From Clytia hemisphaerica (lineage: Eukaryota > Cnidaria > Hydrozoa > Leptothecata > Clytiidae): a stretch of DNA of 64,000 nucleotides. A model generated the notes under the pieces. The model was not told the DNA's origin and did no database searches. It worked only from the letters and a program-made list of their open reading frames with translations. This document shows positions 14,591-42,383 of this stretch, one piece after another (position 1 is the first letter of the stretch; the number at the start of each line of letters is the position of its first letter). Position numbers and translations under genes: made by a program. The stretch spans positions 173,938 to 237,937 of the forward strand of contig CACVBU010000167.1 of NCBI GenBank assembly GCA_902728285.1. Direction: 5' to 3'.

Positions 14591-14705
14591 TTAAAAATAT
14601 ATTTTCAAGCACGTATTTTCCAAAAATGAAAGAGTTAAAAAAACATAACTCGAAGATTCTTGTACCTATGTACAATCATTGTGTGTAATCCCCTAAAAAT
14701 GGCAT

Positions 14706-17660: not shown

Positions 17661-17719
17661 TTTAATTTTTCAGCGTGACACCCCCCCCCCAGAGTTTGGA
17701 CTGATGCTATGCTTTGTTA

Positions 17720-18960: not shown

Positions 18961-19031
18961 CAGACCTCAGTAATATTGACCTACTACTGAAGAAAAACAA
19001 TGAATAAAAAGAAACAAAAGCTAAAAGAGTA

Positions 19032-19463: not shown

Positions 19464-19679
19464 TATTCGCTAAAACGTAGGCAGACTAGATTCTACTTCT
19501 GACTGAACTTTGCTTTTTGATGATTTGATCCAGTGAAGTAGACTAGAGGATATCGCTATCTTGAATTTTTTTCACTTTTCGTTTTCAAAAATCATAAGAA
19601 AACGCAACAAACAATAAAATATGCGAAAACCCCATCAAAGTTTACTAAACAATAAAAACACATGAAAATTAACACCGGG

Positions 19680-20180: not shown

Positions 20181-20182
20181 CA

Positions 20183-20857: not shown

Positions 20858-22040
20858 TCAATAACACCTGTGGGTTTTCGAAACAACAATCATTTGGTTG
20901 TATTCATTGGTCCTGAGTGGTTTCATGCAGCCATAGCACGTTTTTGTGTTTGGATGGCAGAAACGAATAAGACCAATGGCGTATGTCTCTGGCTCTGGGT
21001 CTAGAGATACAGGGCCAGACATATTGCCTTGAAAATATTGCTGTATTGGCTGCTGTATTGGTTGCTGTGAACTTGACTGCGGCATAGCTTGCTGGTCGCT
21101 TGGTCGTGGTTGCTGGGATGACTGTTGCATAGCTTGCTGGTGGAAGTTTGGTCGCTGCATTGGTTGCTGGGATGACTGTTGCATAGCTTGCTGGTGGAAG
21201 TTTGGTGGTCGCTGCATTGGTTGCTGGGATGACTGTTGCATAGCTTGCTGGTCGCTTGGTCGCTGCATTGGTTGCTGGGATGATTGTTGCATAGCTTGCT
21301 GGTGGAAGTTTGGTCGCGGCATTTGTTGCTGGGATGACTGTTGCATAGCTTGCTGGTCGCTTGGTCGCTGCATTGGTTGCTGGGATGACTGTTGCATAGC
21401 TTGCTGGTGGAAGTTTGGTCGCTGCATTGGTTGCTGGGATGACTGTTGCATAGCTTGCTGGTGGAAGTTTGGTCGCTGCATTGGTTGCTGGCATCTTAAC
21501 TGCGGTAATTCTTCAACGGCATCGACAAGCTCTACAACGTTTGGTTTTTTTGTATTAGCCGGTCCTTTTCTTCTTTGCGTGCTTTGAGTCTTTTTCTTTC
21601 CAGCATTCTTTTCTTTTTGCCCAAAAACCACATTCGATGCTTTTTCAGCGCACGATTTCGTATTGAGGAGTTTGATGTAGCTTTCAAATTTTCCTGCTTT
21701 GAAAGCAACAGCAATGGTGTGATGACATACTTCATGTAATTTGTATGTCATACATACCTTTTTCTCACAAACAAACTTGTTTCCGGAACATCTTACGATC
21801 ATTGGTTGCTTCTCATTTTTCGGATTGAAGCAAAGCCACAACAAGCTACCCTGTGGGCCAGCACTGATCCAGTTTTTATTACCAGCATAACGCTCGGCAT
21901 CTTCTGACAATTTAGCAGCTAATGACATTGGGATAGACATGATGGTAAAAGCTGGGATCTTACAACTCTCTAGATATCCGTCCACATCTCCCTGATCATT
22001 TGGATTGATTTTAAAACTTTTAGTAAGTTTGAAGGGTAAT
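20858..22040 (-). CDS. Kinase-MULE gene, last exon: SWIM-like finger and Gln-rich tail
   Basis: The exon starts after a long T-tract acceptor (tttcag) and encodes residues 1430-1823. LLWLCFNPKN then CSGNKFVCEKKVCMTYKL and HEVCHHTIAVAF form a SWIM-type region that follows the transposase domain in this family. C1526, C1535 and H1537 fit C-x(n)-C-x-H, but the second Cys of the usual C-x-C is Thr, and an extra Cys at 1521 may substitute. A Lys-rich patch follows, then about nine units of the QQPMQRPNFHQQAMQQSS type (54-60 bp DNA repeats at about 21,060-21,490). The end includes KTCYGCMKPLRTNE and THRCY, a possible small zinc site. Confidence 0.75.
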
Positions 22041-25000
22041 CTGAAAAAAAAAAAAATCGTAAATTTGTAATGGTTGCAATTATATGGATGATTAAATTTA
22101 GCTAAGAAATGCAAGGGAAGAGCGGGTTGATTAATCCGTAGGTACTTTAATCGTAGAAATTTTAGCGAGAGTAATTTTAGCGTTTTAGCGAGTTTTCCCT
22201 ATTTTTCCCTATTTTCGCTATAAATCTCGCTAAAACACGCCGAAACGACAGATCGCTAAAATTCATCCACGCCAAATTTCTGGTTATATTGCCTTAATGC
22301 ATTTTCATCAATAGAAAGGTTTAATGCAAAGAAATGCTAGAAAACGAATTCAGTCAATAATTTAATACAAGTATTCGCTAAAATTTATCCACGCGAAATT
22401 TTTTGAAATCGTGATTCGCTAAGATAAATCCAAAAAAAATCAAGATTTTCCTGACTCGCTAATATACGCTAAAATTAGTCTCGCTAAAATTTCTACGATT
22501 AAAGTAAAACTTTAGGCGTACAAACTTTCGCGAGCAGAAACTTTCTGTCTTTGTGCAAAAAACTAACGATGAAATCTCAAGAAAATGCCAAAAAAAATTT
22601 GGTATATTTCCAGCATTTTCGGTCGGAATTTTTTTTCTTTCCTAAATCGGGCTCCGTCACATGTTAGGTATTGCCAATTTGCATCAGAATATAAAGTACA
22701 GCTCGAGAAATAAAAAAAAAACCGTTTTTCCGAGAAAACGTTACAAAGCAAAACAAATCGAAATGGTTTCTTATATAGCCCTTCGTGCTTTAAGTCATCG
22801 CACGCAAAACAGTGAATATCGGAAAGGATACTATTGCTATTGTTTTCGAAAACTTGCAAAGCTTCTGTTTGGTCAAGCGCTGAAATTATATTGTAATGTC
22901 ACGTGACTTAGGTAGGGTTTCCTGCAACTGCTCCGTTTTCCTGCTCCGAAACACTCAGAAAGCACTCTAAAGAATTTTATATATCCAGAGTTCAAATCTC
23001 TAGTGCTTGGTACGAAATACAGGTTGAAAATTTAAACAAAATGAGGTTCAAGCTTTAATTTTACGCAACAAAAGGGTTAATACATACTTATTCTTTTGTT
23101 CATCTTTCATTCGGGAATAATCGAAATTTGAGATTGCCAAATGCTCATATTCAGGTGCCAGTGCCCAATCACCTCTACCAACAAAAGCATGTTTTATCCT
23201 CTCCTCTTGTAACTTTACTTCTCCCTTGACAGCTTCGATAGTCTCATTTACTGTTAGTAATCCACGTCGTTTCGCTTTCTTCACCATCGAATTGGCGGAT
23301 TCATTACAATTTTGGTCATATGTCTGAAGACCAAGGCCGCATTTTGCTCGAATGGATAAAATCATCTTGGTCTTTATTTCGTCTTTCTTGTATGTGATCA
23401 TATACTTTGTGAAAGCTCGCCCATTCTTTCTCTCGTTCCATTTTCCAGCCAGTCGATAAAATTCTCTTTCAAATTCAACTGCATTGTCGGAATCGATCAG
23501 CCCTTTGATTTTAACATCACCGATTTGCTGGCCAAATATTTCATTTAGAAACAGTGTTGGATTCTCAATATTAAGTTCCGTCAACTTTCTTTCGATACTG
23601 TCCCTCACATGTATTGTACAGAGTAAATGTTTTCCTTGTGGAAAACATGTTTGCAGAGCACGATGAACATTGATCTCTTCATCGGTTCCAAAAGATCTAA
23701 CATTCCTGATTTCTGGACAGAGTCGAACCATGTTGCTTGGAAGATCGTAACATGAACTGAAAGTTTTTGCTGAGTGGATCAAAACTGGCCCAAGAAGGGT
23801 AGGATGGTTTCCATCTTTTCTAATAATCAACATTGGATGTTTGTAGGTACATATCGTGGCATTGTACGGACAAAGGTTAAACGTGGGATCAACACCAAGT
23901 ATTGAAGAGTTTGACTCGGCGCAAAATTTCAAAATATCTTCAAGTTGGCGGTCTGTTGTTAGTACGGCACTGAACTCCGGAGATGTTCTTACTTCCCTCA
24001 AAAACGCATCTCCCCTGTCCTTTTCCATCTGACATCTGTCAGACAATTCAATGATGTCATCTGATTTTGACTTTTGTGATCTTGTAATATCGTATATTTT
24101 GGTCAAGGAAGGAGGAATTTCAGGCACTATTCTTGCATTGTCAAAAGAAGTTTTCTCACAAAGTTTTTTCAGGATGGACTTTCCTCTAAGACCATCTGCA
24201 GCCATCTCTTGAATTTCCTGCCTCATAGAGTGAGTTATTGCACGGCTAGATTTCTTGTTACCGAATTGTATCTCATGCTCTTCTTTCTCAAAATAATATT
24301 GGATGTACGCTAAATGTTCTGGACGGTCTTTCCCATCAGCAGTTATGGTGATTATGACTTTATGAAAGTCTTTGTGCTTTGGGTGTGCGAATGTGTATCG
24401 ATTGACCATAACATCACCATCTTTGAGGGTGTTACTGAGACGTTCAGTGACTGAATTGAAATAAAAAGTACTTGTCCGCGTTCTTTTCAGCCCACACATA
24501 TCAATTTGGACATCTCGCCAGTGTCGAAGGCCTGATAAATCAACAAGGAATTCCACATTCTTATCGACATAGATTGGTACTCGCTTGCATATCTTTTCAC
24601 TTTCAATTGAGAGGTATTTTAGTAAAAGTTTGGCAGAATCTAATGTTGGCTTTGAAGTATTCTTCCCGATACAGAAAATTGGTTGATTTTCATCGCCATT
24701 GAAGTAGCGAACTAAAAAAGTAAAGAATGCATATCATAAATTAGTGCAAAGGCTAGTCCATCCAAGAAGATAAAGGCAAACAATTGAAGCTCCCTGATTG
24801 GTTGCGCAAGAGAAGACCCAAACCCAATCCGAGAACACGAGGTAATATCCAACTATATTGCAGGAGAAGAAAAGGATTTGCTCGAGACTCGAATTACTTT
24901 GGACGCTTACCCTTTAAGTACCAATAACATATACTCGTCATGTGCTATGGAGGGCAAAGTCCTTCCTGAAACGCCCCCTGTTAACTAAATTAAATTTTCA

Positions 25001-28000
25001 GTCTAATATGCAACAAGGGAATTTTGTTTCTTGTCCCAACATATTTTTTCACAATTAGTCTTTCCTTTCCAAATATGTCAAAGTATTGCATAGTGTCCTC
25101 CCCCCCTTTATAAAGGGGGGGGGGACCAATTTTCCAATTTTGAATGGGTGAGGGGGGAAATGAAAATTTGAATAGTAAAGGGGGGGGGAACAAGGGGGGA
25201 AAACATCGATAGATGGCAAATTTGGTGGGGGAGTGTGAAATCACTTCAATTTTATCTCAGCAACCAAGGTCAGTCCACATGATATCATGTGATTAGATCA
25301 TGATTGAAAAATTAACCAATTTTCGTTCTATTTTGTCTAGTATTCCTTTTGCAGCTAAATTTTACGTTGTGTCAGGTTGAAATTTGAGAAATTTATACGG
25401 GTATATGGGGGGAAAATGATATTTTCAGAATTTTCTGGGGGGATAACAAAAAAGAGGGGGGAAACTAAAAAACTGAAAAGTCATAGGGGGAAAAAAAGAG
25501 GGGAACAAACCCTGGAGGACACTATGTATTGCCAAAATTCGACAACAATGACTTTTTTGCGGATCTGACTGCTTTTAACATACCTTAAGGGAATAAATTT
25601 TCGCGGGAACAAAAATTTCGCGGTTTTCGCGGATTTTGCCTAAAACCGCGAAATTAAGTTACCGCGAAATATTTCAAAATCATTACCAAAATGCTTCATA
25701 TTACTTCGAACAAACGCCCTTGGTGTTTATTAGGTTTTTTGGTTTTTAGGACGGGCGTTTATTCGAGGCAGGCGTTTATTGAAAATTTTTCCTCAAAGGA
25801 GGGGCATTTATCCTCTGAGTTTGTTCCAAAAGTAAAATTCGTGAAAATTCGCGATTTTGCAACCTCGTGAAAGTTTCTGCCCTTGAAAGTTCTACTCTTA
25901 AAATAGTCTGTACACAGACCCGTCATATACGGCTAATTTCAAAATTCATTGCCGTAGAGGTACTTCGAAACGATAAACGTGAGATACACACTGGTACAGA
26001 GTACTAAGAAGGGGTGTCTTTTATGGATCGCTGCCTAGAGGCTTCTATAATATTCGATTTCAGTCGTAAACTTTCGAATGATAAATATTACCTGGAAATG
26101 TTGGTTTCTTTAGTTGTTTTTCGAATTCAGTGTCTGAGTCAGACGACGAAGCTATCACATTTATTTCAGGGTCGCTATGGATAAAAAAATTATACTGTTA
26201 ATTATACTATATCTATAAAGAGGCCCCCCAGCGGTTGGCGTGATGGAGGGTTTGTCGTGGCGTGATGGCATGAAATTTCGAAAAAACGGCGTGATGGCGT
26301 GAAAATGAATTCCTGGCGTGATCGTGAAATCGAGTTTTTTTAGACGTGATGGCGTGAAATTTGCAGTTCAGCGTGATCGTGAAAATTATATTTATGACTT
26401 GAATCGTAACTCTATGTCCATTTTAGCCAATTTTGAGAGTTTAAATTTCAAAAATTTCTTGATCGGCCCCAACCATGGTGGAGCCTCCTATAGATCTCAT
26501 TTTAAAACATAAAAGAAACGGTGCAAACAGCATTATTCATCTGCCATTTATCCTTGTAACTTCCAATTGTCTTTAGCAGTTGCTAGCTAGTCTTCAAAAT
26601 AAAGTCAAATGCTATTATGAGAGTGTCGAAAATTGAAAATTTCTCCAGTTGGCGCAAACCATGGTTGCGCCTCCTCGTTCCCTTTTGAAAACTGTCCACG
26701 CTAATTCAAAATTGATGCCCATGGGTCCCATCAACAGGGGATACCAGGGGGCATATGGCCCTTCATGTTTTTACCAAGAAAAGCTACTTGTACTTTTAAA
26801 TGATTTCCATTATTTTTATTTTGTAATTATTTTTCCAATTGAAATTGGTCCTAAAAAAGCACTTTGAACCCTTCAAAATTCAATAATTTTCTCCGTTGCC
26901 CAACCATGGTGGGCAACGGAAGAAAGGAAGAAATTTTGGCGAGAATTTAATTTGGCGGATGGCCGTAAAAGTTTTTTCAGAGGAAATTTAATTTGGCGGT
27001 TGCAGGATATTTTTTGCCAAAAGCGTTATTAAATAAGCAAAAAAACCTGTTTTAAGGCTTGAAATAGCACAAATTTGGGGAATGCGTGAAATAAATTTGG
27101 CGGGAATTTAATTTGGCGGATGGAGGAAAAAATAAATTTTGGCAGGAACTTAATTTGGCGGATTTTGGCGAAATCCGCCAAATCCGCCAAATTTTCTTTC
27201 CGCCAAAATTTCTTCCTTTAAGGTAGTAATATTCCACTCGTAACTTTTAGCAACCAGCAGAAATCTGATATATCACAAATTTTGTTTCCAATACAAATCA
27301 TTTTTAGACAACCTTATAATTGTTGTCCTTGTAGTTATTTAGGTATTGTTATAAACAGGAAAAATAAAGAATCTTACCTGTCTGCTACGTTGGTTAGATC
27401 AATGTTGACTTGGATATCTGGATCAGAATGGGTGCTGGAGTTTCCTCGGCATCTTTAAAGAAGAAAAATAAACTGTTAAGCTGGGAATTCACAAAATTGT
27501 GAAGTCTTTCGTCAAACAGATCAGCGTGGAACTAATATTTTGCTTTTTGAAATCTATAGAGTCAGAACAGAAGTATTCTTAGTCGAGCTCCTAATGGGCT
27601 AAAACACAGAAAATTAACTACCCTTTTTGCAACAACAGTCCCGGCGGAACAAACATAAAAGTTGGGAGGATGAGGGCTAATTGAGATAAAATTCGCAATG
27701 AATTTGAGAAAGAAATCTCACTTGCTCAAAAGGTTGAAGCGGTTCCGCCAGGCCTGAACAATCTTCAAAGAAGACAAAAATGGGATATATCTTGGTTATA
27801 TAATATTGTATCATGTGCTTACACTATTGTATCAAAGGTTGTCCTGTTATGGTCGACTGTGCCACTTTGTGCATTTGATTTTGACCTGTGAGATATGGAC
27901 AAGTTTTTTCTTAAAGTACCTCGATAAAATAAAATGTTCACCTACAGCCTTACTTTACACAAAACATGGTTGGCGGAGGAACAAATTCAGCCCCTTTTTC

Positions 28001-31000
28001 GGACAGAGTGGCGGAATTTGAAGAAAATTTAGACAAAATTTCGGAAATTGGGTTGTCTGACGGTGACGGTGACGGTGAAATTTGGACAATGATGGTGCAG
28101 AAAAAACAAAATCTAGCAAAAAGTTTCGTGGAATTTCTGAATTGGCTAGAAATATTCGAAGATAGCGGAATTTTTAACAACGGAATTTTCGATGCCGTTA
28201 TTTTGGTCCATTTGTAAAGGTTTGAACGAAATTGGAGCTGATTAATAGACTTACCTTCTCGTATCAGGAGACAAAGGATCGTGTTCGGCTGAGTGATTTT
28301 GTACGCTCGATTTTGACCTGTAGAGATGCAAGACAAATTTTACTTAAAGAAACTCGACATAAAAAATGTTCGCCCTTTCTTCTCAAAAAACATTGTAGAA
28401 AATTGGATCAAGACTCTAAATTTATAGACTTACCTTCTTGTATCAGGAGACAAAGGATCGTGTTTGGCTGAGTGATTGTGTACGCTCGATTTTGACCTGT
28501 AGAGATGCAAGACAAATTTTACTTAAAGAAACTCGACATAAAAAATGTTCGCCCTTACTTCTCATAAAACATTGTAGAAAATTGGACCAAGGCTTTAATT
28601 TATAGACTTACCTTCTCGTATCAGGAGACAAAGGATCGTGTTCGGCTGAGTGATTTTGTACGCTCGATTTTGACCTGTAGAGATGCAAGACAAATTTTAC
28701 TTAAAGAAACTCGACATAAAAAATGTTCGCCCTTACTTCTCATAAAAACATTGTAGAAAATTGGACCAAGGCTTTAATTTATAGACTTACCTTCTTGTAT
28801 CAGGAGACAGAGGATCGTGTTCGGCTGAGTGATTTTGTACGCTCGATTTTGACCTGTAGAGATGCAAGACAAATTTTACGTAAAGAAACTCGATATAACA
28901 AAATGTTCGCCCTTACTTCTCACAAAACATGGTAGAAAATTGGATCAAGGCTCTAATTTATAGCCTTACCTTCTCGTATCAGGAGACAAAGGATCGTGTT
29001 CGGCTGAGTGATTTTGTACGCTCGATTTTGACCTGTAGAGATGCAAGACAAATTTTACTTAAAGAAACTCGATATAACAAAATGTTCGCCCTTACTTCTC
29101 AAAAAACATTGTAGAAAATTTGACCAAGGTTCTAATTTATAGACTTACCTTTTTGCATCAGGAGACAAAGGATCGAGTTCGGCTGAGTGATTTTGTACGC
29201 TCGATTTTGACCTGTAGAGATGCAAGACAAATTTTACGTAAAGAAACTCGATATAACAAAATGTTCGCCCTTACTTCTCACAAAACATGGTAGAAAATTG
29301 GATCAAGGCTCTAATTTATAGCCTTACCTTCTCGTATCAGGAGACAAAGGATCGTGTTCGGCTGAGTGATTTTGTACGCTCGATTTTGACCTGTAGAGAT
29401 GCAAGACAAATTTTACGTAAAGAAACTCGATATAACAAAATGTTCGCCCTTACTTCTCACAAAACATGGTAGAAAATTGGATCAAGGCTCTAATTTATAG
29501 CATTACCTTCTCGTATCAGGAGACAAAGGATCGTGTTCGGCTGAGTGATTTTGTACGCTCGATTTTGACCTGTAGAGATGCAAGACAAATTTTACTTAAA
29601 GAAACTCGACATAAAAAAATGTTCGCCCTTACTTCTCAAAAAACATTGTAGAAAATTTGACCAAGGTTCTAGTTTATAGACTTACCTTTTCGCATCAGGA
29701 GACAAAGGATCGAGTTCGGCTGAGTGATTTTGTACGCTCGATTTTGACCTGTAGAGATACAAGATAAATTTTACTTAAAGAAACTCGACATAACAAAATG
29801 CTCGCCCTTACTTCTCACAAAACATGGTAGAAAATTATATCAAGGCTCTAACTGATACTTTAATCGGATTAACTTTCGCGAAATTAAATCCACCACAAAA
29901 CTTTTAAAATCGTATTTTCGGCGGAGAAACGAGTTCCAAGTCTCCATTTATGGCAAAAAATTGCTATTTTTTAGCTGTTTTCTGGCTTATTCGCGAAATT
30001 AAATCCACGCGAAATTTTTCAAAACTCTGACTTGCGAGATTAAATCCAGAAAATTTCGCGATTTTTTTAGCTCGCGAAATTTAATCTCGCGAAATTTAAT
30101 CCGGTTAAATTAGACTTACCTTTTCGCATCAGGAGACAAAAGATCGTGTTCGGCTGAGTGGTTTTGTACACTCGATTTTGACCTGTAGAAGAGATAAGAG
30201 GAGGACTATCTTCATTCTAGACCAGATGATTATAATTAACACAAGGAAATACCTTAGTTCTCCAAATCAAATGGTTATCAAAGACAGAAGTTTTTGGAAC
30301 ACACAACTTACTTATGTATATAAATTTTATCAAAAGTTAGTTGGTCTTTTGATGAAGCCATTATAGTAAAAATTTAGGCTAGATAGAAAGCTTTATGCAC
30401 TGACTGACTTTATTATCAATACCTGTTATTGGACATGGATTCTGATTCATACGGCTGCAACAAAAGAAATGAAGGAAGTTCGTTTTCTTCGATTTTTGCG
30501 TTTTGCATTCTTCTTGTGCACCATTGCCAGATTTCTCCTGGTGATTTCGAGACGACCACAATGCCGTTTCCATTGCCTTTATCTGCTTCATTGATAGGAT
30601 GTGTATCAATTAAAACAATTTCTTCACCAGGAAAGACAACGATAGACCAAACCAATTGCTGAATGTGAAATATTATGGATTGGGTCATATGACCAGAGCT
30701 TGCCAAAGTTTGTACGTCCCTCAACGCTCCCACGATTATATCACGGCATCGAAAAGAGTACAAAGTTAGATTCACAGGTTCATCGTTCACCAATTTTTCG
30801 ATCATTTCAAATCGATACGTTATCAGATTGTGTTTACAGAGCATATTATATGCTTCAAGAACTTCTGGTAGTTCTGAAATCTTTCGAAATTTGTTCAATT
30901 CTTTTGGAAAATCTAGGATCACAGATGTGACCAAACTTTTGATATTCTCGATTAGAAAGTAATTGTTTTCATCGGATACAGCCAATCTATCAATGATACC

Positions 31001-34000
31001 AAGAGTTAGGAAAGCACAAGCATTCGTACCGTCGTTGTCATAGCATGTTTTCTTATGTTGTAGATCGCTCGATTTGATGGTATTTTTCATTGGTGAAGCC
31101 ATCATATGTGCGGTTATTGCATCATTTTGTTCCACTACGGTGACCTGTGACACTTCAAGTGGGTAAAAACTAATTTCAATTTGGTTGTCAATGGTCTCTA
31201 ACATCTCTTCAGCAGTCGATCGTTTGCTTGGCTCATACTTAAGGCCCAGATGGTATACGACTCTTATATGCTCATGGGAACATATTTGTTCTCTTTCATA
31301 TTGCTTGGAAGAGCTTGGCATTGCTTGTTTGGTCATAAGTTTTTCGAGTTTGGCCTTAGCAGGAAGCATTAAAAACTTTCCTTTTCCTACTTTCTCATCC
31401 ATTTCCTCGACATCTTTTTCAAATGGAAAATTTTGATCAGGATTTATTACTAAGAATAAAGTCATTGCCATTGCCCATACATCAACTTTCTTCAAGTCAT
31501 CAAGGGAAGCTACCTTGAGAAGAAACTGATCGACTAAAAGCTCTGGAGCCATAAACCAGACAGTTCCACGCTCAACGTGTTTTGTTTTCGTTACCAAATG
31601 ATTCATTTCAGTTTGGGCAGACATTGATCTAGCCTCACCCAAATCAGCAAGTTTACATACAATGGGTATTAAACTATACATCTTCCCGGCATCTTTTGAA
31701 TTCAATCCCCAATAATGTTGATTACTCACCAATATATTTTTAGGTTTAATGTCTCTATGGACAATGTTGTTGGTATGTAAGTACGCAACAGCTGCGATGA
31801 TATCTTGAGCGATTTTCATCTGGATGTTGGGTAGCGATGTTGTCAAGTTTTGTTCACTTAAAATGTTCAAGAACGATGAAAGACAATTGGCCTTAAGGTC
31901 ATTACGTCCTAACGGTCCAAAAGAAAATTCGAGGTATGGCAGCATGATTGCTTTCGGTTTGTCACAAACAGCAATTACATCAATGATATTTGGATGATTT
32001 GTCTGATATAGCACCATCGCTTCCTTTGCAAAAACTTTACCAAGCCTCTGTGAGGATTGTTCTAAAGGCTTTTTGATCACAACTTTATCACTTTCATATC
32101 TTACCAGTTCAACAGACGCAAACGATCCACGACCTATAGGAAATAATTCAAAAATTTAGTTAGCTTTACAAGGTGTCCGGAAAAAAAGTATCGATTCGTA
32201 CCACTTCTATAGCAAGAAAGAAAAACAAAATCACAATGTTTAAAAGTTTCTCCCTGCGTCATATTAATTGTCAACAAAACATCTTTTATGAATACCCAAT
32301 TCTACGTAAGCTTGTTAGTGCTATCAAGCGGGAAATAAAATCTATCTCGAGATGATAATTTTTCTCAGAGTTATCTCAGGATAATTTATCTCGAGATAAT
32401 TCATCTCTGGATAATTTATCTTGAGATAATTCATCTCCGGAAAATTTATCTCGAGATAAGTTTATCTCAAGGTAAGTTTATCTCGAGGTCGACATGTATT
32501 ATTGGAACTAATTTTCGCGGGAACTAATTTTCGCGGTCGAAAAAAAATATCCGAAAAATTGCATTTCACGGGTTCTAATTTTCGCGGTTTTTTCCATTCT
32601 GGAATTTTCGCGGGTTTTAATTTTCGCGGTTTTGCCCTTTTTTGTACAAATTTCTTTCATTTTCCTAGGGATTTTTCAATTTTTTCGATAAAATTGGAAA
32701 AAATTGTATTTCGCGGGAATTAATTTTCGCGGTTTTCAACTCTCAAAATTTTTCGCGGGAACAAATTTTCGCGATTTTAACGAAAAACCGTGAAAAACGC
32801 TAAAATTAAAACCCGCGAAAATTAGTTCCAATAAGGTAACTACAAGCCTACTAGCCTTATACATTTTCAACCGTAGTCGCGTGGTCAGGCGCGTGCCACT
32901 TAATTATTTAATTATCCCCCTTAACTCGATCCAATCCTTTCTTGACACTTTTTTTCTTTTGTCTATAGGTGCAAAAAAAGGACTGGGACGGTTTTAGTGG
33001 GATAAATCGTAACCTCAAAGCAGCTCTTAGTGCCCTACAATGGTTCCACAAGAAGACCTGCGAAGGTTCTTGGGTTTTCTTTGATGACCTCCGAAATTTC
33101 AGAGTACTTTTCACGATTCAATTGCGGGCATTCGCATGAAATTAAATCGATTTGCTTGGCCCGTCATAGGATGCGTGGAGTAAAGAAAATCGATTCTACT
33201 CCGACCGTGGCTTTCTTGCTCCGAACAAAATCCAAGATGGCGCCTGAAATTCACGTTTTGGCTGTTAGTCAATATTTTGATTTTTTTATGGATTTTGAGA
33301 CTTTTAAAGGAAAGTTCAAAAGTTCAATGTTTCAAATGTTGTTTAATTAGTTAAGTGTAGCTCCGACTTACACCAACAGAAGTGGCTGTTCATCATACTT
33401 ATTGACTTCAAAGCTTTGAAAGACTGTTTTGAAAGTTGTATTTTTTCACACAGATTTTGCTTGAATGTTTTCTCAATTTTGTTCAAGATGAAGGCTCAAA
33501 CACCAAACAAATTTTTACAGATGTTATGTAATGTGTACTTCTTTCCTGCTATCTCCTTGACGATTAACTAGAATCAAGCATTTTCTCAGAATAATTATAA
33601 CTTAACGTGTGTGAAATGTGTGTCAGGTGAACAATCGACAAAATAATTGATTCAAACCCCAAGAAATTGACTAGTTTAGGCTCTATTTGTACTGTTGGAT
33701 ATTTGGAAAAAATTATGGTGAAATTTCATATTTGTTGAGCTTTTTTAAGCGGTTTCGATGCTCAGTTTTTTGGGTCGCATACCTTTTTGGCTTTTTGCAA
33801 TCAGACTTCAAAAACCTTTCATGAGAACTTTTTAATAGATTTGAAAGATTTCAATTTAAATGATACTGTTTACGATTTTGTAGCCATGATATTTTCAGAT
33901 GCTCAAACGGTATTTCAGCAGTAAAAAAGTTAGTATTTTTGGCAGGTGAACATTCAGATTGTTCCATGTGCAATTTCCTGTTAACATCTGAAAAATCTTT

Positions 34001-37000
34001 TGGAAAATATTTAATATTTCAAAAGATATAGAGGTTTTTGGACCTACCCCAGTGGAGGTCCTATAAATTAACCTCTGTCCGTCCGTTCGTCCGTTCGTTC
34101 GTTCGTTTGTTCGTTACCAACTTTTCTCGAGATTGGCTCATTAGTGATTTTTTGCACAAAGATGTGTAGTTATAAACCCTCGAATGTGACGAAGCCCGAT
34201 CGGAAAAAATTTTTTTGGGCAAATTTGGGCCAAAAAACGGCTAAAAAATAGGTTTTTTGGACTTTGTGAAAAATTGGATCATTAATTTTTTCTGATTTTT
34301 TTTGCATGAAAGTAGGGTACCATCATAGGTAAAAGATGGCTCAAGCAGATTTTCGCAAAAAAATTTTGTTGGCTCAAAAAAAACGCATGTTTGTCTATAA
34401 GAATCACTATTAATAAGCATACATCAATGTTCTTAGTCAAATTACTCAATTATTTTTATGAGGTAGATGTTTTTTTTGCTCATGAGGGCTTACTTTTGAA
34501 GAATATGTGTGTTTAGACAGGAAATTTTTTTTGCTTGGCGTGTTTTTATGGAAAACTGGCCAAATTCGATATTTTTTATAAGCACATTATCAATTACTTA
34601 GGTATTAGCTGTTCTCGAGATGGGCTCTTTGATTGTTTATGATTTTTGCACAAAGATGCATAACTATAAACCCTCGAATGTGACGGAGACTGAATTTCGA
34701 AAAAAAATGTTTTTGAGCAAATTTGGGCTAAAAAACGGCTAAAAAACGGGTTTTTTTTTGACTTTGTAAAAAATTGCATCATTAATTTTTTCTGATTTTT
34801 TGTATGAAAGTAGGGTACCATCATAGATAAAAGATGGCTCAAGCAGATTTTTTCAAAAAAGGTTTGTTGGCTCAAAAAGCGCATGTTTATCTTAAAGAAT
34901 CACTATTAATAAGCATACATCAATGTTCTTAGTCAAATTACTTTTTTTTATGAGATAGATCTGCTACTTTTCGCAGATGATACAAAGATCTTCAAAGAAG
35001 TAGTTTCAGTCCATGACTCCCTTGCCATACAAAGTGATATAGACACACTCGAAAAATGGTCCATTGATTGGCTATTACAGTTCCATCCGGATAAATGTCA
35101 CATTCTTACAATCGGCAAATTCGTAAAAATAAAACACGCTCATCCGTATCGTCTTGGTGATATTCAGCTTGAGCACGTATTTGAACAAAAAGACCTGGGT
35201 ATATTGGTTGATGCTGAATTGACATTTGAAGACCATATAGCCAATCAAGTAAAAAAAGCCAACTCAATGCTTGGTGTCATCAAACGAGGTTTAACTCCAG
35301 AGATACACTATACTCAACATTTGTCCGACCACACCTTGAGTACGCACAATCAGTTTGGTCACCAAGATTACGTAAACACGTCAAATTTGGGCCAAATACG
35401 GCTGAAAAAAGGGCTTTTTGGACTTTGTGAAATATTGGATCATTGATTTTTTGCATGAAATTAGGTAAAAGATGGTTCAAGCAGATTTTTCTAAAAAAAG
35501 AATTCTTCAGCTCAAAAAACGCATCTTTATCTATAAGAATCACTATTAATGAGCATAAATTAATGTTCTTAGCCAAATTGGTCAATTTTTTGACGAGATG
35601 GATGTTTTTTTGCTCACGAAGTCTTGAATATGAAAGAATATTTCAAGAGCATGAAATTTTAGTTTCTAAATGTTTTTTATAAGAAACAAATGACTAATTT
35701 TAATAGATCGTCAATATTTGTGTTCTGAATGATTGTTTAATGGTCACGTCAAGTAGATATCAATTATAAATATGTTAAATGCATCGCGGCGTACATCACC
35801 ATGGGTTGATGAATCTCAATAACCAACTTTTACCTATTGAATATCTGCTTAATAGTCGATATCGTAAGGTAATCGATATTCAATCGATATTTAATCAATA
35901 ACTCTTCGATATCTCTTCGATATATTTTATGTCGATTAGCTATCGATTATAGATTTTAATCAATAGCTGTTGATCGATTAATATCGATTATCTATCTATT
36001 TGAATCGACGATCGAGTTTATCAACAACGAACGTCTAGAAAGGATATGTGAAAAAACAAAAAATAAATTTTTGTTATTATGCTAGGGTGAAGAAAAAACA
36101 AAAAAGATTGCCCTTCGAATCTCCTGCAGTTTTCGAGTGAATCGATTTTTAGTGAATCGATAGAACTTATCAAGACCCTCTTTTAATTAACGGTTTTTCT
36201 TTAGGTATAAAAATCAAATATCTGGTGCTACCAACGGATTCAGTGTGAAAAGTAGATAAAAAAAAATGGGGTTATTTGCTAAGTTTCGACAATCTGGTGC
36301 CAAGAAATGGCATTTAAGGCGAAAAATCGACTTGGGTGTTTTGTGATGACGTCGGCATTTTCCTAGGAGAATTTTCAGAAAAAATCATTCCCACTGCTGG
36401 ATAGCCTTGAGTTTGTAGTATCAAAAAATGGTATGGTTTCTTATGTTTTAGTGTTTAGATCTCGAGATAATTCATTTTTAAGGTGGTAAAATATGCTGAA
36501 AAACTGTTGACTCAGCAAAAAATATAATTTTTTTTGCCGGAAGCCTAAAGCTCCCGAGGATGGCATTCATAGCTTCACGCATAAGGAAGTTGGGCAAACA
36601 TCTTATAATTTTGCGTTTATTTTTGCGCGCGTTTTTCAGTACTTTAGTTCCGCTTAACGGTAGCATTCTTATCTTACGGTCTCTCTATTGTTTTATCATC
36701 ATCAAAATGACTTTTCCGGAGTTCTTTTGATCTGATTACTCATTTTGAAATCTCAGTTTGTCTTTTTCTTATCCCTGGAGAGTTAATGAATCTAAGGAAA
36801 ATCCCTTTTCTGGGAAATTCCCATATTCAACCACAAGTAGTTATTAAGTGCTCTTCATAGGTTAAAAATATTACTATACTAAAAGTATTCGAACGTGTTG
36901 TTGCTAAACGTGTACATTAGTATAAAATAACATATGAAGACTAGTGTCTTCAGATATACGCTTTTCATAGGAAAAACCAGTAAGTCGTATGATTCTGGCT

Positions 37001-40000
37001 TAGCTGCTCTTAATTTTATATGAGTTTTTCAGGCTTAAATGTCAATATTAATGAAAATGGAAACCTGTACTTCTCAGTAATTTCTGAAATCTGAGGCTCA
37101 GATTCTTCTTAATTTGTTCTTAGGTTTTGGCTAAATATCAGCCTCGTATTCTTATGAAATTGCCCTTATAAAAACGTGTAAGACAAGGCACGGATGTCAC
37201 TGTAAACCACTCCCTTGACACATTTGTTAGCATTTGAAAGAATTCTGTCTCAGATGAGAGGTCCATTGGGTTTAAAGCCCGAAGGGCTAGAGTTCAATCT
37301 CTAACCTTTCTCAGGCAAGAAAAATTGAAGCCTTAAAAAATGCGCCGCATTTTTGACGACATATTGAATCTAGCAATTCCTTTGTTTACGATTAATATTT
37401 TTTTCGAAATTTAGCGGTAAATTTTAGTTTCAATCTGTCATTTGTGTAAAAACAAGGCGAGCCGCTCAAGGCCGCGCACCTTTGGTAGGACTTGTTGGCT
37501 TCAAATCCTACCAAGGAGATTGACTTCCAGTCCTTCGGGCTTATACTTCATTGAAGAGGTCACTCTTAACAAAAATTACTGTAGGGCTAAGATCATTCCT
37601 TTTGAACGCAAATTCAATTCTATGTGTTCGTTTTGTTGGCACCTTAATGAAAGTTATGGCTAGTAATATTTAAAACCAAAGTCATCCGTGTATGAAAACA
37701 ATCCGTGTAGCGAAAGTTTAATTGAATTTTCTTTTTAAAAATGAAATGAAAATTGAAAAAAATTCAATTTCCTTTTTTGATATGTGAAAGGTAATTGAAA
37801 AATAGGTCACATTTCTATTTTCTATTTGAGATAGGAAATTGAACTAAAATGAAATATTTTAGGAAATTTTTGGACGAGTTAGGGCGCTCTGGGCGCTCCT
37901 CACCTTTGGTAGTCCAGCTCTTTTGCATGGGAGTCACCACGTTACCCAAATTCTCACACCGCCAGGTCATTGCATCGTCTGGTCCGTAATTTCTTTTTAA
38001 AATGGAATTCTAAATTTGAAATTCTTTTTTCTTTTTTCTTTTCCAGAAGCAAAATTGAAATATGAGCCAATTTTCTTTTTCCTATACTAAATAGAAAAAT
38101 AAAGTTGAATCGCTATTTCGTGGGTGTACCCGGGCGTTTTTTTTCTCCACAGGGGCCTCCTCTCTTGTTCATTTTCTGTCTGTTTGTTTGTTCTGCTCTT
38201 TCTTGTCACGAATGACATCGCAGCACCAGTGTCTTTCTCGTTTGTCTTTAGTTGTAATGTGTTGGCATTGGCAGGAGTTCAGAAAGAGCAGGAGAAACAG
38301 ACAATGGACAAGGGTGGAGGAGGAGAAAAAACGCCCGGGTACACCCACGAAATCGCGATTCAACTTTACTTTTCTATTTAGTATAGGAAAAAGAAAATTG
38401 GTTCATATTTCAATTTTGCTTCTGGAAAAGAAAAAAGAAAAAAAGATTTCAAATTTAAAATTCCATTTTAAAAAGAAAAACTTTCGATTCGAAACACGGA
38501 TAAAAATTACGGACCGGACGATGCAATGACCTGGCAGTGTGAGGATTTGGGTAACGTGGTGGCTCTCATGCAAAAGAGCTGGACTACCAAAGGTGAGGAG
38601 CGCCTTGAGCGCCCTAACTTGTCCAAAAATTTCCTTAAATATATCATTTTAGTTCAATTTCCTATTTCAAATAGAAAATAGAAATTTGACTTATTTTTCA
38701 ATTTTCTTTCACATATCAAAGAAAGGAAATTGAATTTTTTTCAATTTTCATTTCATTTTTAAAAAAAAAATTCAATTATACTTTCGCTACACGGATTGAA
38801 AACGTCCATTCGATTGTTGGTCAATTTTCAATTGAAAATTGATTTTTTACAGCAATTTTCAATATTTCAAAAAGTTCAAAAATTGAATTTCAAATTTTTA
38901 TCTAATTTTAATTTGTTTTAACCCTAACCCTAAATTTATTGAAATTCCAATAGGGGTCAAAAGAGAATGGCACTAGTGGTAGTGAGGAGGCCTGTGAACT
39001 AAATCCACAACACAACCTTTTGTCTTTGGGGATCTGGGAGCAAGAAAACATGTGTGTAGTTATGATACGATACAGAATATATTAATTGTTATAAGAATCC
39101 AACTGTTGAGTCGTAGATTTATTTATTTGAAAACACTTATTTATAACACCCCTAAATCAGCGTCCCTGTCGGGTCCGCCCCGGTGAATAACCTGGTGAAA
39201 AAATAGCCTAAATTTAAGCTCCAGTGAAGAAATGACTCACTCCAGGCAATTGAAGCTGAGTGATCACAAACCCAGTGAGAAATTGAAATAAAAGCTGTCC
39301 ACTCCCGGTGAAATTTTATATAACCCAGGCTACCCGGTCAAAAAGCACACTTTCACTTGGCAAAAAAACAGGTAGAAAAGTGTATATATCAACTAGAAAA
39401 TCTCCAAAAAAAACTAGTGTCACAAAAAAGTGTACGTTTAGTAGATCTGGAGATTTAGAACGCCATATGAGTAATCCCCAAGAACCTAATCGAAATTCAC
39501 ACAAATCAAAAAAGACTCAAATTTCCACCCCAGTGGAAAGTTTCTTTAAAAATCTTCCCGCAGCCGATTTTAATCTTTTATCAGACTCACTCCGGTGAAG
39601 TTTTATCTTCCACCAGGTCATGGGTGGGAACAGGGGTGTTTTATACGAAATAATAAATAGATATCCATCTGACCTGTGTTAATTTGTCGTGTTTGTGATT
39701 TAGTTCCCAGGTCTCCTCACTAGTGCCATTCCCTTTTGACCCCTATTGGGATTTCAATAAATTTTAAAGGTCAACATATTTTCTGACATTAAAAATATTA
39801 GACCGAAATTACATTTTCAATCTTTTTTGAGACTGAAAAATAGTGAAAACTGGATGAATATTCAATTCTTAATTTTTTTGGGCGTATAAAAAAATTAAAA
39901 TTGGATCAAAATTTAAAATTCAATTTTCAATTTTCAAAATATTGAAAATTGACCAAAAATCGAATGGACGTTTTCATACACGGATGCAAAGTATCTCGAG

Positions 40001-41095
40001 ATCTAGAGATCGAAAGTCAACAAACAATACCAAAAAAAATCAAGCAATTGAGTAATCCGTATCCGTGCACCGATCGTATCATTCGAATTTTTAATTGAAA
40101 TCAAACTTGAAAATAAAAAAAAGACAGCAATTTTTTAATTCTCAAAAAATTAATAAATACACTATGTCAAATTTTTTATTTCTAAATCAGTTTGAAAATT
40201 AAAAAATTGGAAAACAAAATTTGAAAATTTAAAGTAATATTTGCGATTGGATGATCAGTGTGGGACTTTTATGCCCGTCCCATTGGGAGGGATAGTTATT
40301 CATAGTTCCACCGAGGCAGTGAGACAGGGACGTCAGTAAACTAAGTGCTTTTTACTTACAACAAATATCACAAAATAGAATCAAAACTTCAAAATAACTT
40401 TAAATATTAAATTTTTGTTTTCTCTGATTTGAAAATCAAAAAGTTGACATAATTTTTCTATTTGTAATTTTTGAAAATTGAAAAATTAACGATTTTTTGA
40501 ATTTTCAATTTTGATTTCAATTAAAAAATCGAATGATACGATCGGTGTACAGAGTCATTTCAGAGACTAAACAGTTCTAGGAGAAAATCAAAAGGATTGC
40601 AAGAAAAAAAAATAAAAAAAAATAAAAACATCAAGAAAATCAGAAAAAAATTAAAAAAATCAACAAAAAAAAAAATCATAAACAAAAAAAAAATCAAGAT
40701 TAAAAAAAACCTAGTACACTTTTTTGGAGCGCTTTTTAACCCCTCATAGAATTTGACCAACTCGGACTAATTTCGACCAACACGGACTAGATCTTACTAG
40801 CAAAGTTTGCTTACAACCTGCCTAGTATAAACAAACAGGAATAAAATTTGGGCCCACAAAAGTAAAATAGAAATATTTTTATGCGGGGATCCGACATGGT
40901 CTCTGCCTACTTTTTTAGTCCTCAAAATTGCTTATTTAGATAACATAACTAAGCAGATTATATTTATAAAATGATAAATTAAAAACACTCACCAACTTCT
41001 TTGATGATATCGATCTCATTGAAATCAAATCTATCAATAGTTTCATTGAAAACTTTCGGTACTGTGGTCTGTGGTAATGATAGTGTAGGTAACAT
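20858..41095 (-). CDS. Kinase - 21-aa exon array - MULE transposase - SWIM fusion gene
   Basis: Seventeen candidate coding exons on the minus strand join into 5,472 nt (1,823 codons plus TGA). They are 41095-40993, 32133-30423, ten 63-nt exons from 30182-30120 down to 28317-28255, 27885-27823, 27452-27378, 26174-26092, 24711-23088 and 22040-20858. Every junction has an AG acceptor and a GT donor and keeps the frame, which is very unlikely by chance across so many joins. Domain order is: kinase (about residues 24-350), peptidase-like region (about 395-600), eleven 21-residue repeats (605-835), acidic linker (836-888), MULE transposase (889-1429), variant SWIM finger (1521-1537), Gln-rich repeats, and a C-terminal Cys cluster. 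The start at 41,095 is the first Met compatible with the kinase frame and is tentative. Whether one transcript spans all exons is inference. The gene could be domesticated or a gene-capturing element. Confidence 0.7.
21060..21490 (-). repeat. Coding minisatellite in the Gln-rich tail
   Basis: Units of about 51-60 bp (GGTTGCTGGGATGACTGTTG on the plus strand, then CATAGCTTGCTGGT) are repeated nine times in multiples of three, so length changes do not break the frame. A second frame is also open throughout (PATNAATKLPPASYAT units), a repeat by-product. Confidence 0.8.
22145..22504. mobile_element. MITE family C with TA flanks
   Basis: The ends read CTTTAATCGTAGAAATTTTA and TAAAATTTCTACGATTAAAG, perfect inverted repeats of at least 20 bp continuing into GCGAG/CTCGC. 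TA flanks both sides. The interior repeats GCTAAAAT and TCGCTAA motifs. The element lies in the intron between the MULE and SWIM exons. Confidence 0.8.
22510..22548. mobile_element. MITE family A, single-end remnant
   Basis: CTTTAGGCGTACAAACTTTC followed by GCGAGCAGAAACTTTC matches one end of the full copies at 19.0 and 44.2 kb and then stops abruptly. Confidence 0.7.
22549..22730. repeat. Dispersed repeat (CGGCATTTTCGG / GGGCTCCGTCACAT family)
   Basis: AAATCTCAAGAAAATGCC, then CCAGCATTTTCGGTCGG, then AAATCGGGCTCCGTCACAT, then ATTGCCAATTTGCATCAG. The same order occurs three times at 61.6-62.2 kb and once at 63.5-63.7 kb. Confidence 0.6.
23088..24711 (-). CDS. Kinase-MULE gene, MULE DDE transposase exon
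   Basis: Residues 889-1429. The exon is bounded by a ttttttag acceptor and an AATAA|gtatgt donor. The stretch matches metazoan MULE transposases. A first Asp lies in SSILGVDPTFNL (residue 1163), a second in FGTDEEINVHRAL (1232), a C-x-x-H in LLCTIHVRD (1253-1256), and a Glu in NCNESANSMVKK (1359), where the third acidic residue of the DDE triad is expected. No internal stop or frameshift occurs over 541 codons. If the donor were not used, the frame would end 13 codons later at 23,048. Terminal inverted repeats or a 9-bp duplication around the gene were not found. MULE transposases cut and move DNA in the nucleus; here the domain may instead serve DNA binding. Confidence 0.8.
25089..25526. mobile_element. 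Inverted-repeat element with G/C homopolymer ends and 5-bp target duplication
   Basis: Inverted ends CATAGTGTCCTCC and GGAGGACACTATG are each flanked by TATTG (25,084-25,088 and 25,527-25,531). The interior is rich in GGGGGG runs and AAAATGA-type words. Size is about 438 bp. The element lies in an intron of the kinase-MULE gene. Confidence 0.75.
25583..25890. mobile_element. MITE family B, degenerate copy
   Basis: The left end TACCTTAAGGGAATAAATTT with TCGCGGGAAC matches the copy at 54.66 kb. The right end is GAAAGTTTCTGCCCTTGAAAG. The middle carries an ACGGGCGTTTATTCGAGGCA segment not seen in the other copy. Confidence 0.55.
26092..26174 (-). CDS. Kinase-MULE gene, acidic linker exon (83 nt)
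   Basis: The exon is bounded by atccatag and gtaata. It encodes DPEINVIASSSDSDTEFEKQ then LKKPTFP, a Ser/Asp-rich stretch resembling a casein-kinase-II-type phosphorylation target and a flexible linker. The phase matches the array on one side and the MULE exon on the other. Confidence 0.65.
26229..26380. repeat. GGCGTGATGG-GTGAAA repeat
   Basis: GGCGTGAT or GCGTGATGGCGTGAAA-like phrases recur at least six times in about 150 bases, each followed by GTGAAAT. This is simple degenerate repetition within an intron. Confidence 0.5.
26924..27225. mobile_element. MITE family F (TTTGGCGG)
   Basis: The left AAAGGAAGAAATTTTGGCG is matched by the right CGCCAAAATTTCTTCCTTT. The interior repeats AATTTAATTTGGCGG and its complement. 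The ends resemble family B (AAGGGAAGAAA) with TTTGGCGG in place of TTTCGCGG. Confidence 0.75.
27378..27452 (-). CDS. Kinase-MULE gene, linker exon (75 nt)
   Basis: The exon is bounded by tttaaag and gtaaga. It encodes CRGNSSTHSDPDIQVNIDL then TNVAD in the same phase as the 63-nt exons. Its HSDPD recalls the HSAEHDP core of the array, so it may be a distant relative of those exons. It splices on to 26,174, completing a Ser codon. Confidence 0.65.
27823..30182 (-). repeat. Array of eleven 63-nt coding exons on a ~179-bp tandem unit
   Basis: Ten near-identical exons lie at 30182-30120, 29748-29686, 29569-29507, 29390-29328, 29211-29149, 29032-28970, 28853-28791, 28674-28612, 28496-28434 and 28317-28255, spaced 178-179 bp apart. 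A diverged eleventh, still exactly 63 nt, is at 27885-27823. Each is preceded by ctacag (cacag in the eleventh) and, apart from 29507 (gtaatg), followed by gtaag. Each begins with one base completing a codon and ends with two, so any number can be spliced in frame. Each adds 21 residues, SKSSVQNHSAEHDPLSPDT plus a two-residue junction. Variants include AELD for AEHD and PDAK for PDTR. A 253-bp MITE sits in one intron, and about 250 bp of other sequence separates the diverged copy. Confidence 0.85.
29858..30110. mobile_element. MITE family D inserted in the exon array
   Basis: The 253-bp insert plus its duplicated TA exactly accounts for the extra 255 bp between two array exons (434 instead of 179). 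Ends are CTTTAATCGGATTAA and TTAATCCGGTTAAAT, with TTCGCGAAATTAAATCC inside. It lies in an intron, so coding is unaffected. Confidence 0.85.
30423..32133 (-). CDS. Kinase-MULE gene, exon 2: Ser/Thr kinase plus peptidase-like region
   Basis: Residues 35-604 of the fusion. Kinase motifs seen are GRGSFASV (nucleotide loop), VVIKKP (the usual ATP-binding Lys, about residue 55), IVHRDIKPKNIL (catalytic Asp 162), LADLGEA (metal-binding Asp 198, with DLG in place of DFG) and WFMAPELL. The set looks catalytically intact and is of the tyrosine-kinase-like/Ser-Thr type. After the kinase lies NDGTNACAFLTL (Cys 407), and 137 residues later VLIDTHPINEAD (Asp 544, His 546). Cys in a TN-C-FL setting followed by a D-T-H resembles papain-fold or deubiquitinase-type active sites, but I cannot assign a family. 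The exon ends AACAG|gtattg in the phase needed for the repeat exons. Confidence 0.75.
32340..32490. repeat. ATCTCGAGATAATT tandem repeat
   Basis: Seven or more degenerate copies of TATCTCGAGATAATT (16-18 bp) are present. Each holds the palindrome ATCTCGAGAT, so the tract can fold back on itself. It directly abuts the next MITE. Confidence 0.65.
32499..32834. mobile_element. MITE family E (TTCGCGGGAACTAA)
   Basis: Inverted ends read TTATTGGAACTAATTTTCGC and GCGAAAATTAGTTCCAATAA. Internal TTTCGCGGG motifs are repeated. The target duplication is unclear. The element lies in the first intron of the kinase-MULE gene. Confidence 0.75.
32880..34040. other. Intron sequence without recognised features
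   Basis: Short frames only (up to 106 codons at 33,030-33,350, no domain). The region lies within the 8.9-kb first intron of the kinase-MULE gene. Confidence 0.4.
34044..34123 (+). repeat. GGTCCTATAAATTAACC-(CGTT)n repeat head
   Basis: GTGGAGGTCCTATAAATTAA is followed by CCTCTGTCCGTCCGTTCGTC and more CGTT units. An inverted counterpart is at 62,200-62,310. This is a dispersed repeat with a microsatellite. Confidence 0.7.
34124..35640. repeat. Three copies of a ~340-bp repeat around a LINE fragment
   Basis: Copies at about 34,124-34,475, 34,608-34,960 and 35,383-35,640 share AAACCCTCGAATGTGACG (first two), GGGCAAATTTGGGC, CATGAAAGTAGGGTACCATC and AAGAATCACTATTAATAAGC in the same order. The third is 5'-truncated. 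LINE sequence occupies the space between copies 2 and 3. Confidence 0.7.
34969..35382 (+). pseudogene. Reverse-transcriptase fragment of a LINE
   Basis: The frame reads LLLFADDTKIFKEV, then DTLEKWSIDWLLQFHPDKCH and DLGILVDAELTFEDHI, then VKKANSMLGVIKRG. FADD is the catalytic motif of non-LTR reverse transcriptases, and WSIDWLLQFHPDKCH corresponds to the downstream W-----L-FN--K segment. Only about 130 codons remain; both ends are lost. Confidence 0.75.
35700..37680. other. Intron sequence; ATCGAT-rich patch
   Basis: At about 35,850-36,010, ATCGATAT- and TCGATTA-type words are densely repeated. The rest has no domain or repeat I can name. At 37,487-37,519, GGTAGGA and TCCTACC enclose CTTGTTGGCTTCAAA, a small hairpin. 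Confidence 0.4.
37702..38798. mobile_element. Large foldback element 1 (near-palindrome, ~1.1 kb)
   Basis: The two halves are near reverse complements about a centre near 38,235. Left markers are TGTAGCGAAAGTTTAATTG, GGGCGCTCCTCACCTTTGG, AAATTCTCACACCGCCAGG and GGGTGTACCCGGGCGTTTTT. Right markers are their complements at about 38,340, 38,535, 38,590 and 38,785. The short central spacer is not coding. This structure fits a foldback transposon or a large inverted duplication. Confidence 0.8.
38793..39986. mobile_element. Foldback element 2 with unique core (~1.2 kb)
   Basis: Outer arms AAAACGTCCATTCGATT (left) and AATCGAATGGACGTTTT (right) and inner arms CAATAGGGGTCAAAAG then GAATGGCACTAGTG (left, 38,948) with complements near 39,715-39,750 are nested. 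The core (39,010-39,700) holds a 96-codon frame at 39,308-39,598, basic, with CTFSRSGDLERHMSN resembling part of a C2H2 finger. That frame has no supported start or splice context. Confidence 0.7.
40055..40560. mobile_element. Foldback element 3 (~500 bp)
   Basis: GCACCGATCGTATCATTCGA followed by TTTTTAATTGAAATCAAA on the left is mirrored by TTTGATTTCAATTAAAAAAT and TCGAATGATACGATCGGTG on the right. The centre contains GGGACTTTTATGCCCGTCCC. Confidence 0.75.
40993..41095 (-). CDS. Kinase-MULE gene, exon 1 (start and glycine loop beginning)
   Basis: The exon encodes MLPTLSLPQTTVPKVFNETI, then DRFDFNEIDIIKEV and the first base of a Gly codon. It ends at a strong gtgagt donor. Joined to 32,133 it gives KEVGRGSFASVEL, a proper kinase glycine-rich loop, which is why the two are paired across an 8.9-kb intron. 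The Met at 41,095 is followed by an open frame. The frame also stays open upstream to about 41,197, so an earlier start or an upstream exon cannot be excluded. Confidence 0.65.
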
Positions 41096-42310: not shown

Positions 42311-42383
42311 GCCCTAAAAATATGTTACGTTATTCACAACACATTTTATCTGTATTTGACAATTGATGTTTTTTAACTTTCAG

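Follow-up and report, generated by a model that had tools for sequence, protein, structure and literature searches.

Several Mutator-type (MULE) DNA transposons resemble the element described here in one feature or another. In Aedes aegypti, Muta1 and other MULEs likewise make 8-9-bp target duplications and combine an end motif with subterminal tandem repeats, and they too comprise an autonomous copy and hundreds of non-autonomous relatives with shared ends, a DDE MULE transposase and, in some of them, introns (PMC5225508). Muta1 is 3.2 kb long, however, against 27.6 kb for the present element, and the part of that account used here describes neither an exon array nor a peptidase. A short non-autonomous relative, Muta1NA3, has captured a 276-bp Ser/Thr kinase gene fragment; this piece is recent, being 97.5% identical to its host source, whereas the kinase reported below is an old, constrained domain of a transposase gene (PMC5225508). 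Tm1, a Mutator/Foldback family of root-knot nematodes, has variable-length composite inverted termini of tandem repeats, a 9-bp duplication and both short and transposase-bearing members, as in the present family, but its end motifs differ and the word ‘kinase' is absent from the main text (PMC3169594). Rehavkus also ties a minisatellite to a terminus and makes a 9-bp target duplication, yet it has a PHD finger and a minisatellite only before the 3′ terminus (PMC6446971), whereas the present element has arrays at both ends and its protein gave no Pfam match to a PHD finger. Pack-MULEs, too, hold non-transposase coding sequence between MULE termini, but what they carry are host gene fragments (PMC6431247) and not, as here, an old and constrained part of the transposase gene. 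The word ‘kinase' is missing from the main texts of a MULE survey (PMC6446971) and of a giant-transposon review (PMC6431247), and a literature search, covering parts of its sources, found no kinase fused to a MULE transposase.

The locus compared with these systems lies in a 64,000-nt stretch of the Clytia hemisphaerica genome (hereafter the window; C120:173938-237937 in a searched genome of 417 Mb in 951 contigs). With a probability of roughly 0.85, the window contains a Mutator-type DNA transposon of 27.6 kb that has minisatellites as terminal repeats and one large spliced gene running from a kinase to a SWIM-like motif (Table 1). The most fitting classification is a MULE with Foldback-like ends, set apart as a new form by the kinase, the peptidase-like domain and the exon array in its transposase gene.

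Table 1. Features of the element and of its main gene, in window coordinates.
Feature	Position	Strand	Remarks
Whole transposon, 27,613 bp	14701..42313	- (strand of main gene)	inverted termini, 8-bp duplication, empty site
Left target duplication copy CTAAAAAT, 8 bp	14693..14700	.	
Right target duplication copy CTAAAAAT, 8 bp	42314..42321	.	
Left terminal inverted repeat: GGCATACAGGAAAACTGGGAG, then minisatellite of about 27 bp	14701..15102	+	
Right terminal inverted repeat: same motif and minisatellite, inverted	41825..42313	-	
Subterminal sequence upstream of exon 1, common to short relative L059 on C142	41365..42101	-	two blocks, 77-79% identity
Exon 1: start codon, 34 codons	40993..41095	-	homologous exon in C308 at 405068, E 6e-6
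Exon 2: protein kinase domain, then cysteine-peptidase-like domain	30423..32133	-	constrained
Exons 3-13: eleven 63-nt exons, 21 codons each, phase 2 to 2	27823..30182	-	
Exon 14: 75-nt linker exon	27378..27452	-	homologues in C308 and, weakly, C417
Exon 15: 83-nt linker exon	26092..26174	-	homologues in C308 and C417
Exon 16: MULE transposase core, D, D, E and C-x2-H positions	23088..24711	-	first Met at residue 71
Exon 17: SWIM-like zinc motif, Gln-rich repeats, start of C-terminal Cys-rich motif	20858..22040	-	premature stop
Conserved 61-codon frame continuation past the premature stop	20672..20857	-	window-C308 ungapped similarity 20706 to 20977

Structure and domains of the kinase-MULE gene

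The gene was rebuilt base-exact on the minus strand from 41095 to 20858 as 17 exons with 5,472 nt and 1,823 residues, all 16 introns being GT-AG, the phases compatible and a single stop standing at the end. This confirms the observation from which the analysis started: a sequence-only reading had joined seventeen exons with consensus splice sites and compatible phases, and the kinase HRD and the MULE D, D and E positions that it named are present in the kinase and MULE exons. Its length and its one stop were also right, but the stop is not a proper terminal one, as a sense codon is found at 20858-20860 in all four relatives that cover the position (C308, C558, C417 and C677, among which C558 is a recent copy of C308). 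By this comparison the stop is premature and not the ancestral end, and the window copy, truncated by it, may be inactive. The same reading had seen the exon array of the window while missing the arrays at the same place in three other kinase copies, and its list of domains had passed over the peptidase-like domain at the end of the kinase exon.

The first half of exon 2 matches the Pfam protein kinase profile (E 9.3e-34), and the kinase Lys, HRD Asp and DFG-type Asp are present in six of six aligned copies (window, C308, C417, C817, C504 and C594); by these features the domain is a eukaryotic protein kinase, with activity predicted. The second half of the exon forms a separate conserved domain with the motifs NDGTNACAFL ... 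LIDTHP. It looks like a cysteine peptidase with the order Cys...Asp-x-His, presumably of a kind with peptidases C54, C76 and C78. Neither Pfam (no match) nor the PDB sequences (best phmmer E 0.4, not meaningful) named the domain, so the label is a motif-based one. In the copies whose aligned letters were examined, its Cys is kept in 6/6 and DTHP in 4/4, the C817 alignment stopping before the latter motif. A single-sequence AlphaFold2 fold of the kinase exon alone was unusable (mean pLDDT 31.9). Ovarian-tumour (OTU) enzymes are proteases. An accessory OTU gene accompanies MuDR-6_HM, a MULE of Cnidaria (PMC6446971). The putative peptidase of the window element would be comparable in kind, although it has the unassigned Cys...Asp-x-His domain in place of OTU.

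For the MULE exon, Pfam gave an E of 0.0033, below the cut-off, and it gave no match for the corresponding exon of C417. A profile comparison of the window's MULE clade with the genome's own MULE domains (seven that passed the Pfam cut-off, of 8 loci, one with a stop being left out) yielded a probability of 87.7 and an E of 3.4e-6, with D, D and C-x2-H aligned. The third acidic residue is present in four of the five aligned sequences that reach its position, and the catalytic positions are kept in the aligned copies except for C558, where that residue is lost. On these grounds exon 16 is assigned to the DDE transposase cores of MULE type. The zinc motif of exon 17 we take to be SWIM-like, the exon having no convincing Pfam match. 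Nine pattern matches to the MULE exon were obtained among viral contigs, none of which was confirmed. Genome-wide, at least 91 Pfam MULE matches with E up to 0.001 were found (150 of 157 candidates scored), many of them in long open frames; judged by this count, MULEs are abundant in the Clytia hemisphaerica genome.

Directly after the kinase-peptidase part, four kinase copies each have a short-exon array of their own: 11 exons of 63 nt in the window (mostly within a 179-bp tandem repeat), four of 72 nt plus one of 66 nt in C308, five of 75 nt in C417, and nine of 66 nt, one of 69 nt and one of 64 nt in C504. The array sequences differ among the copies and are all rich in Ser and Thr, as would follow if local homogenisation had recurred at one fixed position; separately homogenised arrays at one place in four copies represent an unusual case of tandem exon duplication. 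Within the window array, units diverge about equally in their exon (0.041) and intron (0.051) parts, with no clear difference, so that selection on the array sequence is not shown. A repeat finder detected no such array on C594. The C504 copy (C504:2056960-2059000) is a kinase copy of 32-34% identity with at least 11 tandem short exons after the peptidase-like part.

Between the window and C308, pN ranges from 0.11 to 0.25 and pS from 0.68 to 0.76 over eight pieces from the kinase, peptidase-like, MULE and SWIM regions; because synonymous change is saturated or nearly so (formally in two of these eight pieces, and also between the window and C417 or C817), the ratios are rough. The low pN relative to pS indicates that the kinase is held under constraint like the transposase. 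None of the window, C308 and C417 copies is a wholly intact kinase-MULE copy: C308 has small frame-breaking indels, and the peptidase-like region of C417 is interrupted by roughly 690 bp of inserted sequence with the inverted ends CTCAAGTGAGTTACGGCATG (C417:1180489-1181174). In C558, a deletion breaks the frame, a stop is present, one catalytic residue is lost and the end is truncated.

Other copies and continuity of the gene

The kinase exon found matches on C308 (64%), C817 (52%), C417 (53%) and C504 (34%), and at 31% on C594, C944 (two places) and C513, with 77 of 82 candidates scored. For the MULE exon, with 80 of 198 candidates scored, matches of 64-78% were found on C417, C308 and C558, short fragments of 47-52% on C464 and C866, and many others mostly at 24-40%. 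The SWIM exon matched C558, C308, C417 and C677, and more weakly C472, C261 and others. C817 and C504 have the kinase without a MULE detected among the 80 of 198 MULE candidates scored, while C558 has a MULE without a kinase. C558 was considered as a separate MULE-SWIM transposon and rejected, being a recent partial copy of C308 (98.8%) that ends inside an exon and in which no termini were found.

On C308 and C417 the kinase, tandem short exons, linker exons, MULE and SWIM-like exon stand on one strand, in the window's order and with matching splice points. DNA similarity between the window and C308 extends over exons 2, 15, 16 and 17 plus 152 bp past the stop, and elsewhere over one 52-bp repeat in intron 1 and nothing else; exons 1 and 14 and the array show none at the DNA level. 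A homologue of exon 1 was looked for in C417 and not found.

Comparison of these three copies supports well that kinase and MULE belong to one gene. The earlier claim of a single gene stands to this extent, with splice sites and phases matching in three copies and no start codon for a MULE-only product, and from this we infer one continuous mRNA across the kinase and MULE exons. Alternatively, the transposon may hold two genes: an upstream kinase/peptidase gene that stops shortly after the kinase exon or within the array, and a downstream MULE gene with a promoter and a first exon of its own. If the intron behind the kinase exon were retained, translation would meet a stop two residues on, and behind each array exon one residue on, which makes a kinase-only isoform possible; kinase-free MULE-SWIM relatives with open frames of about 1,060 residues also exist on C628 and C825. 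Yet in 3/3 copies (window, C308 and C417) the kinase exon ends in a GT donor, and the linker exons keep the phases. Exon 15 is present in all three copies, and exon 14 is clear in two and weak in one, its homologue being 75 or 78 nt in C308 and 51 nt in C417 (a match right at the score threshold used) and lying in both between the array and exon 15. Moreover, a conserved N-terminus precedes the first Met of exon 16, and neither exons 14 and 15 nor the open frames immediately preceding exons 14, 15 and 16 contain an in-frame Met. Finally, 31 of the 32 array exons across the four copies are multiples of three, as expected if the arrays are translated between two coding parts. A two-gene transposon is held to be unlikely, although it is the most probable of the alternatives.

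Further kinase and MULE sequences lie in other arrangements. On C594 (2683702-2693526) and C944 (153264-163831), a distant kinase plus peptidase-like piece is followed on the same strand, about 9 kb downstream, by a distant MULE, and C944 has an additional inverted kinase copy; this may be either the same architecture or a coincidence. The MULE of these two loci is far from the closest to that of the window. Since kinase-free MULE-SWIM elements (C628 and C825, 34%) are closer, the kinase is the mark of a single clade. The last exon of the window recurs in part at C677:575999-577291 with about 86-88% identity; this copy has two stops, before and at the SWIM-like motif, but lacks the premature stop seen in the window. 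In C308 (396725-397033) and C558 (402026-402334), a GT-AG intron of about 309 bp interrupts the MULE exon; neither the window nor C417 has it. A segment of this intron (C308:396768-396878) recurs at two further places on C558, and the intron looks like one gained from an inserted repeat.

Termini, empty site and short relatives

The two inverted minisatellite arrays both start outermost with an identical 28 nt, and CTAAAAAT abuts both. The whole window contains 610 exact inverted 20-mer pairs separated by more than 2 kb; the transposon ends are the only pair abutted by an 8-bp direct repeat. As in foldback-type termini, the ends consist of tandem repeats of varying copy number. A search for terminal inverted repeats restricted to 18-44 kb did not show them, as the left terminus lies outside that range. 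The joined flanks have matches at 93% on C730, C292 and C901 that span the junction, starting 124 bp to its left and reaching the end of the query 400 bp to its right; farther out, the left flank is a dispersed repeat. The empty site on C730, the one match read letter by letter, has one copy of the 8-mer and no gap within 60 bp of the junction, with 25 gap letters elsewhere; this shows past insertion of the unit at 14701-42313. The range of 20858..41095 first assigned to the locus contains the gene, whereas the functional unit is larger.

A second element of 17.8 kb (17,771 bp) was found at C308 388244-406014, with termini GGCATACTGGAGAAGTGGGACGTGG that are different from but related to those of the window and with a 9-bp duplication; beside it lies a 1.1-kb member with the same ends and its own 9-bp duplication. 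As the duplications of these two are A/T-rich, each is singly weaker evidence. For C417, termini were not found within the 19.5 kb examined.

The window end motif has 118 matches in the genome (65 + 53) with up to 2 mismatches, and the C308 motif has 150 with up to 1 mismatch, the reversed pattern having none in either case. Facing pairs less than 40 kb apart number 40 among 94 exact matches of the window terminus, and at least 42 among the 100 matches listed for the C308 terminus. For each type the longest pair among the matches listed, at 27,613 and 17,771 bp respectively, is the gene-bearing copy, and these two are the only ones of the 82 facing pairs that enclose a kinase or MULE match among the matches scored. 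Of the short relatives one, L059, was read completely. It carries an 8-bp duplication, and on either side it has subterminal sequence in common with the window element, also in the stretch 270-480 bp upstream of exon 1; outside its arrays no open frame of more than 110 residues was found. Target duplications are thus 8 bp in the window element and L059 and 9 bp in the C308 element and its short neighbour, all four within the 8-10 bp of MULEs, and the inverted termini are, as in MULEs, common to non-autonomous relatives.

That most listed members with window or C308 ends are short is what would be seen if a host kinase-MULE gene had been captured, as by a Pack-MULE, between the ends of an unrelated transposon whose real transposase is encoded elsewhere. 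Among the matches scored there is no second gene-bearing copy with exact window termini, elements of 10-14 kb exist that are known by their ends alone (C261:775158, C419:2201043, C526:140846, C666:229120, C771:2171953 and C902:459778), and a MULE that took up host kinase sequence has been described, Muta1NA3 of Aedes with its 276-bp Ser/Thr kinase gene fragment (PMC5225508). We nevertheless consider such a capture improbable: the C308 element carries the same gene between different but related ends, so that the capture would need to occur twice, and the core of the gene is itself a DDE transposase, with a duplication size that fits MULEs (PMC5225508). The ‘gene-capturing transposon' of the sequence-only reading came close, but the kinase is not recent passenger cargo: it is common to separate elements at or near synonymous saturation and is constrained like the transposase.

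The other proposal of that reading, a ‘domesticated regulator', is contradicted by the inverted termini, the target duplication, the empty site, the second complete element and the short relatives. Many introns, deep divergence and strong constraint would be in keeping with a domesticated host gene formed by fusion of a kinase with a transposase. A gene of that kind should be immobile and without termini or target duplication, whereas these and an empty site were found here and a broken paralogue sits inside its own termini; this reading was rejected as very improbable. Judged by these features, the window gene is the main gene of a Mutator-type transposon, not a domesticated gene of the host. 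A chance joining of unrelated exons found no supporting evidence and was rejected with near certainty, as C308 and C417 share the exon order and window-C308 DNA similarity is nearly confined to exons.

Possible self-control of transposition, and neighbouring sequences

The mechanism we propose is as follows. The element would be an autonomous Mutator-like transposon. Its encoded protein would consist, in order, of a protein kinase, a cysteine-peptidase-like domain, an array of Ser/Thr-rich 21-residue segments, a MULE DDE core and a SWIM-like motif, the variable segment array arising from copied exons. The MULE/SWIM half would bind the repeat-rich ends, catalyse cut-and-paste transposition with an 8-9-bp target duplication, and also move the many short elements that share the ends. 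The kinase and peptidase-like half would regulate transposition, the kinase most likely acting on its own linker array or on the transposase, or else on host repair and cell-cycle proteins. These enzymatic activities, the kinase targets and transposition by the encoded enzyme are predicted from the domains, with self-control of transposition as the leading interpretation of the role of the kinase.

Phosphorylation control of a transposase is usually regarded as the host's doing. Here, a ‘selfish' DNA element seems to unite in a single protein a kinase of its own, a possible protease and a row of copied mini-exons. Tentatively, and at somewhat less than even odds, the element might represent a class of eukaryotic DNA transposons with a regulator inside the transposase, in which a kinase, a deubiquitinase- or protease-like domain and a fast-changing phospho-acceptor array made by tandem exon duplication are joined to the MULE in one polypeptide; through phosphorylation that it encodes itself, the element would adjust its own transposition or else the damage and cell-cycle response of the host, with array length as an evolvable setting. 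If the kinase truly lies within the transposase gene, self-control of transposition becomes directly testable. The kinase-MULE element is also a natural case in which to study how enzymes are gained and retained by transposons, and its minisatellite termini show how repeats can form part of transposon ends.

Several sequences near or apart from the element were also recorded. A fragment with an FADDT motif, which we take to be reverse transcriptase-like, is nested in intron 1 of the kinase-MULE gene (window 34913-35446, plus strand), and a reverse transcriptase frame lies outside the element at window 46446-47864 on the plus strand (Pfam RVT_1, E 6.5e-31). Open frames at window 50694-55414 (plus strand) presumably resemble the ribosome-assembly protein UTP20, Pfam giving no confirmation for the two that were scanned. 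Elsewhere in the genome, a mitochondrial COI fragment reads with code 4, having Arg at AGR and Ile at ATA, as is indicative of a cnidarian or sponge and perhaps of a medusozoan cnidarian; it occupies C900:5-967, at the end of a 14.6-kb contig.
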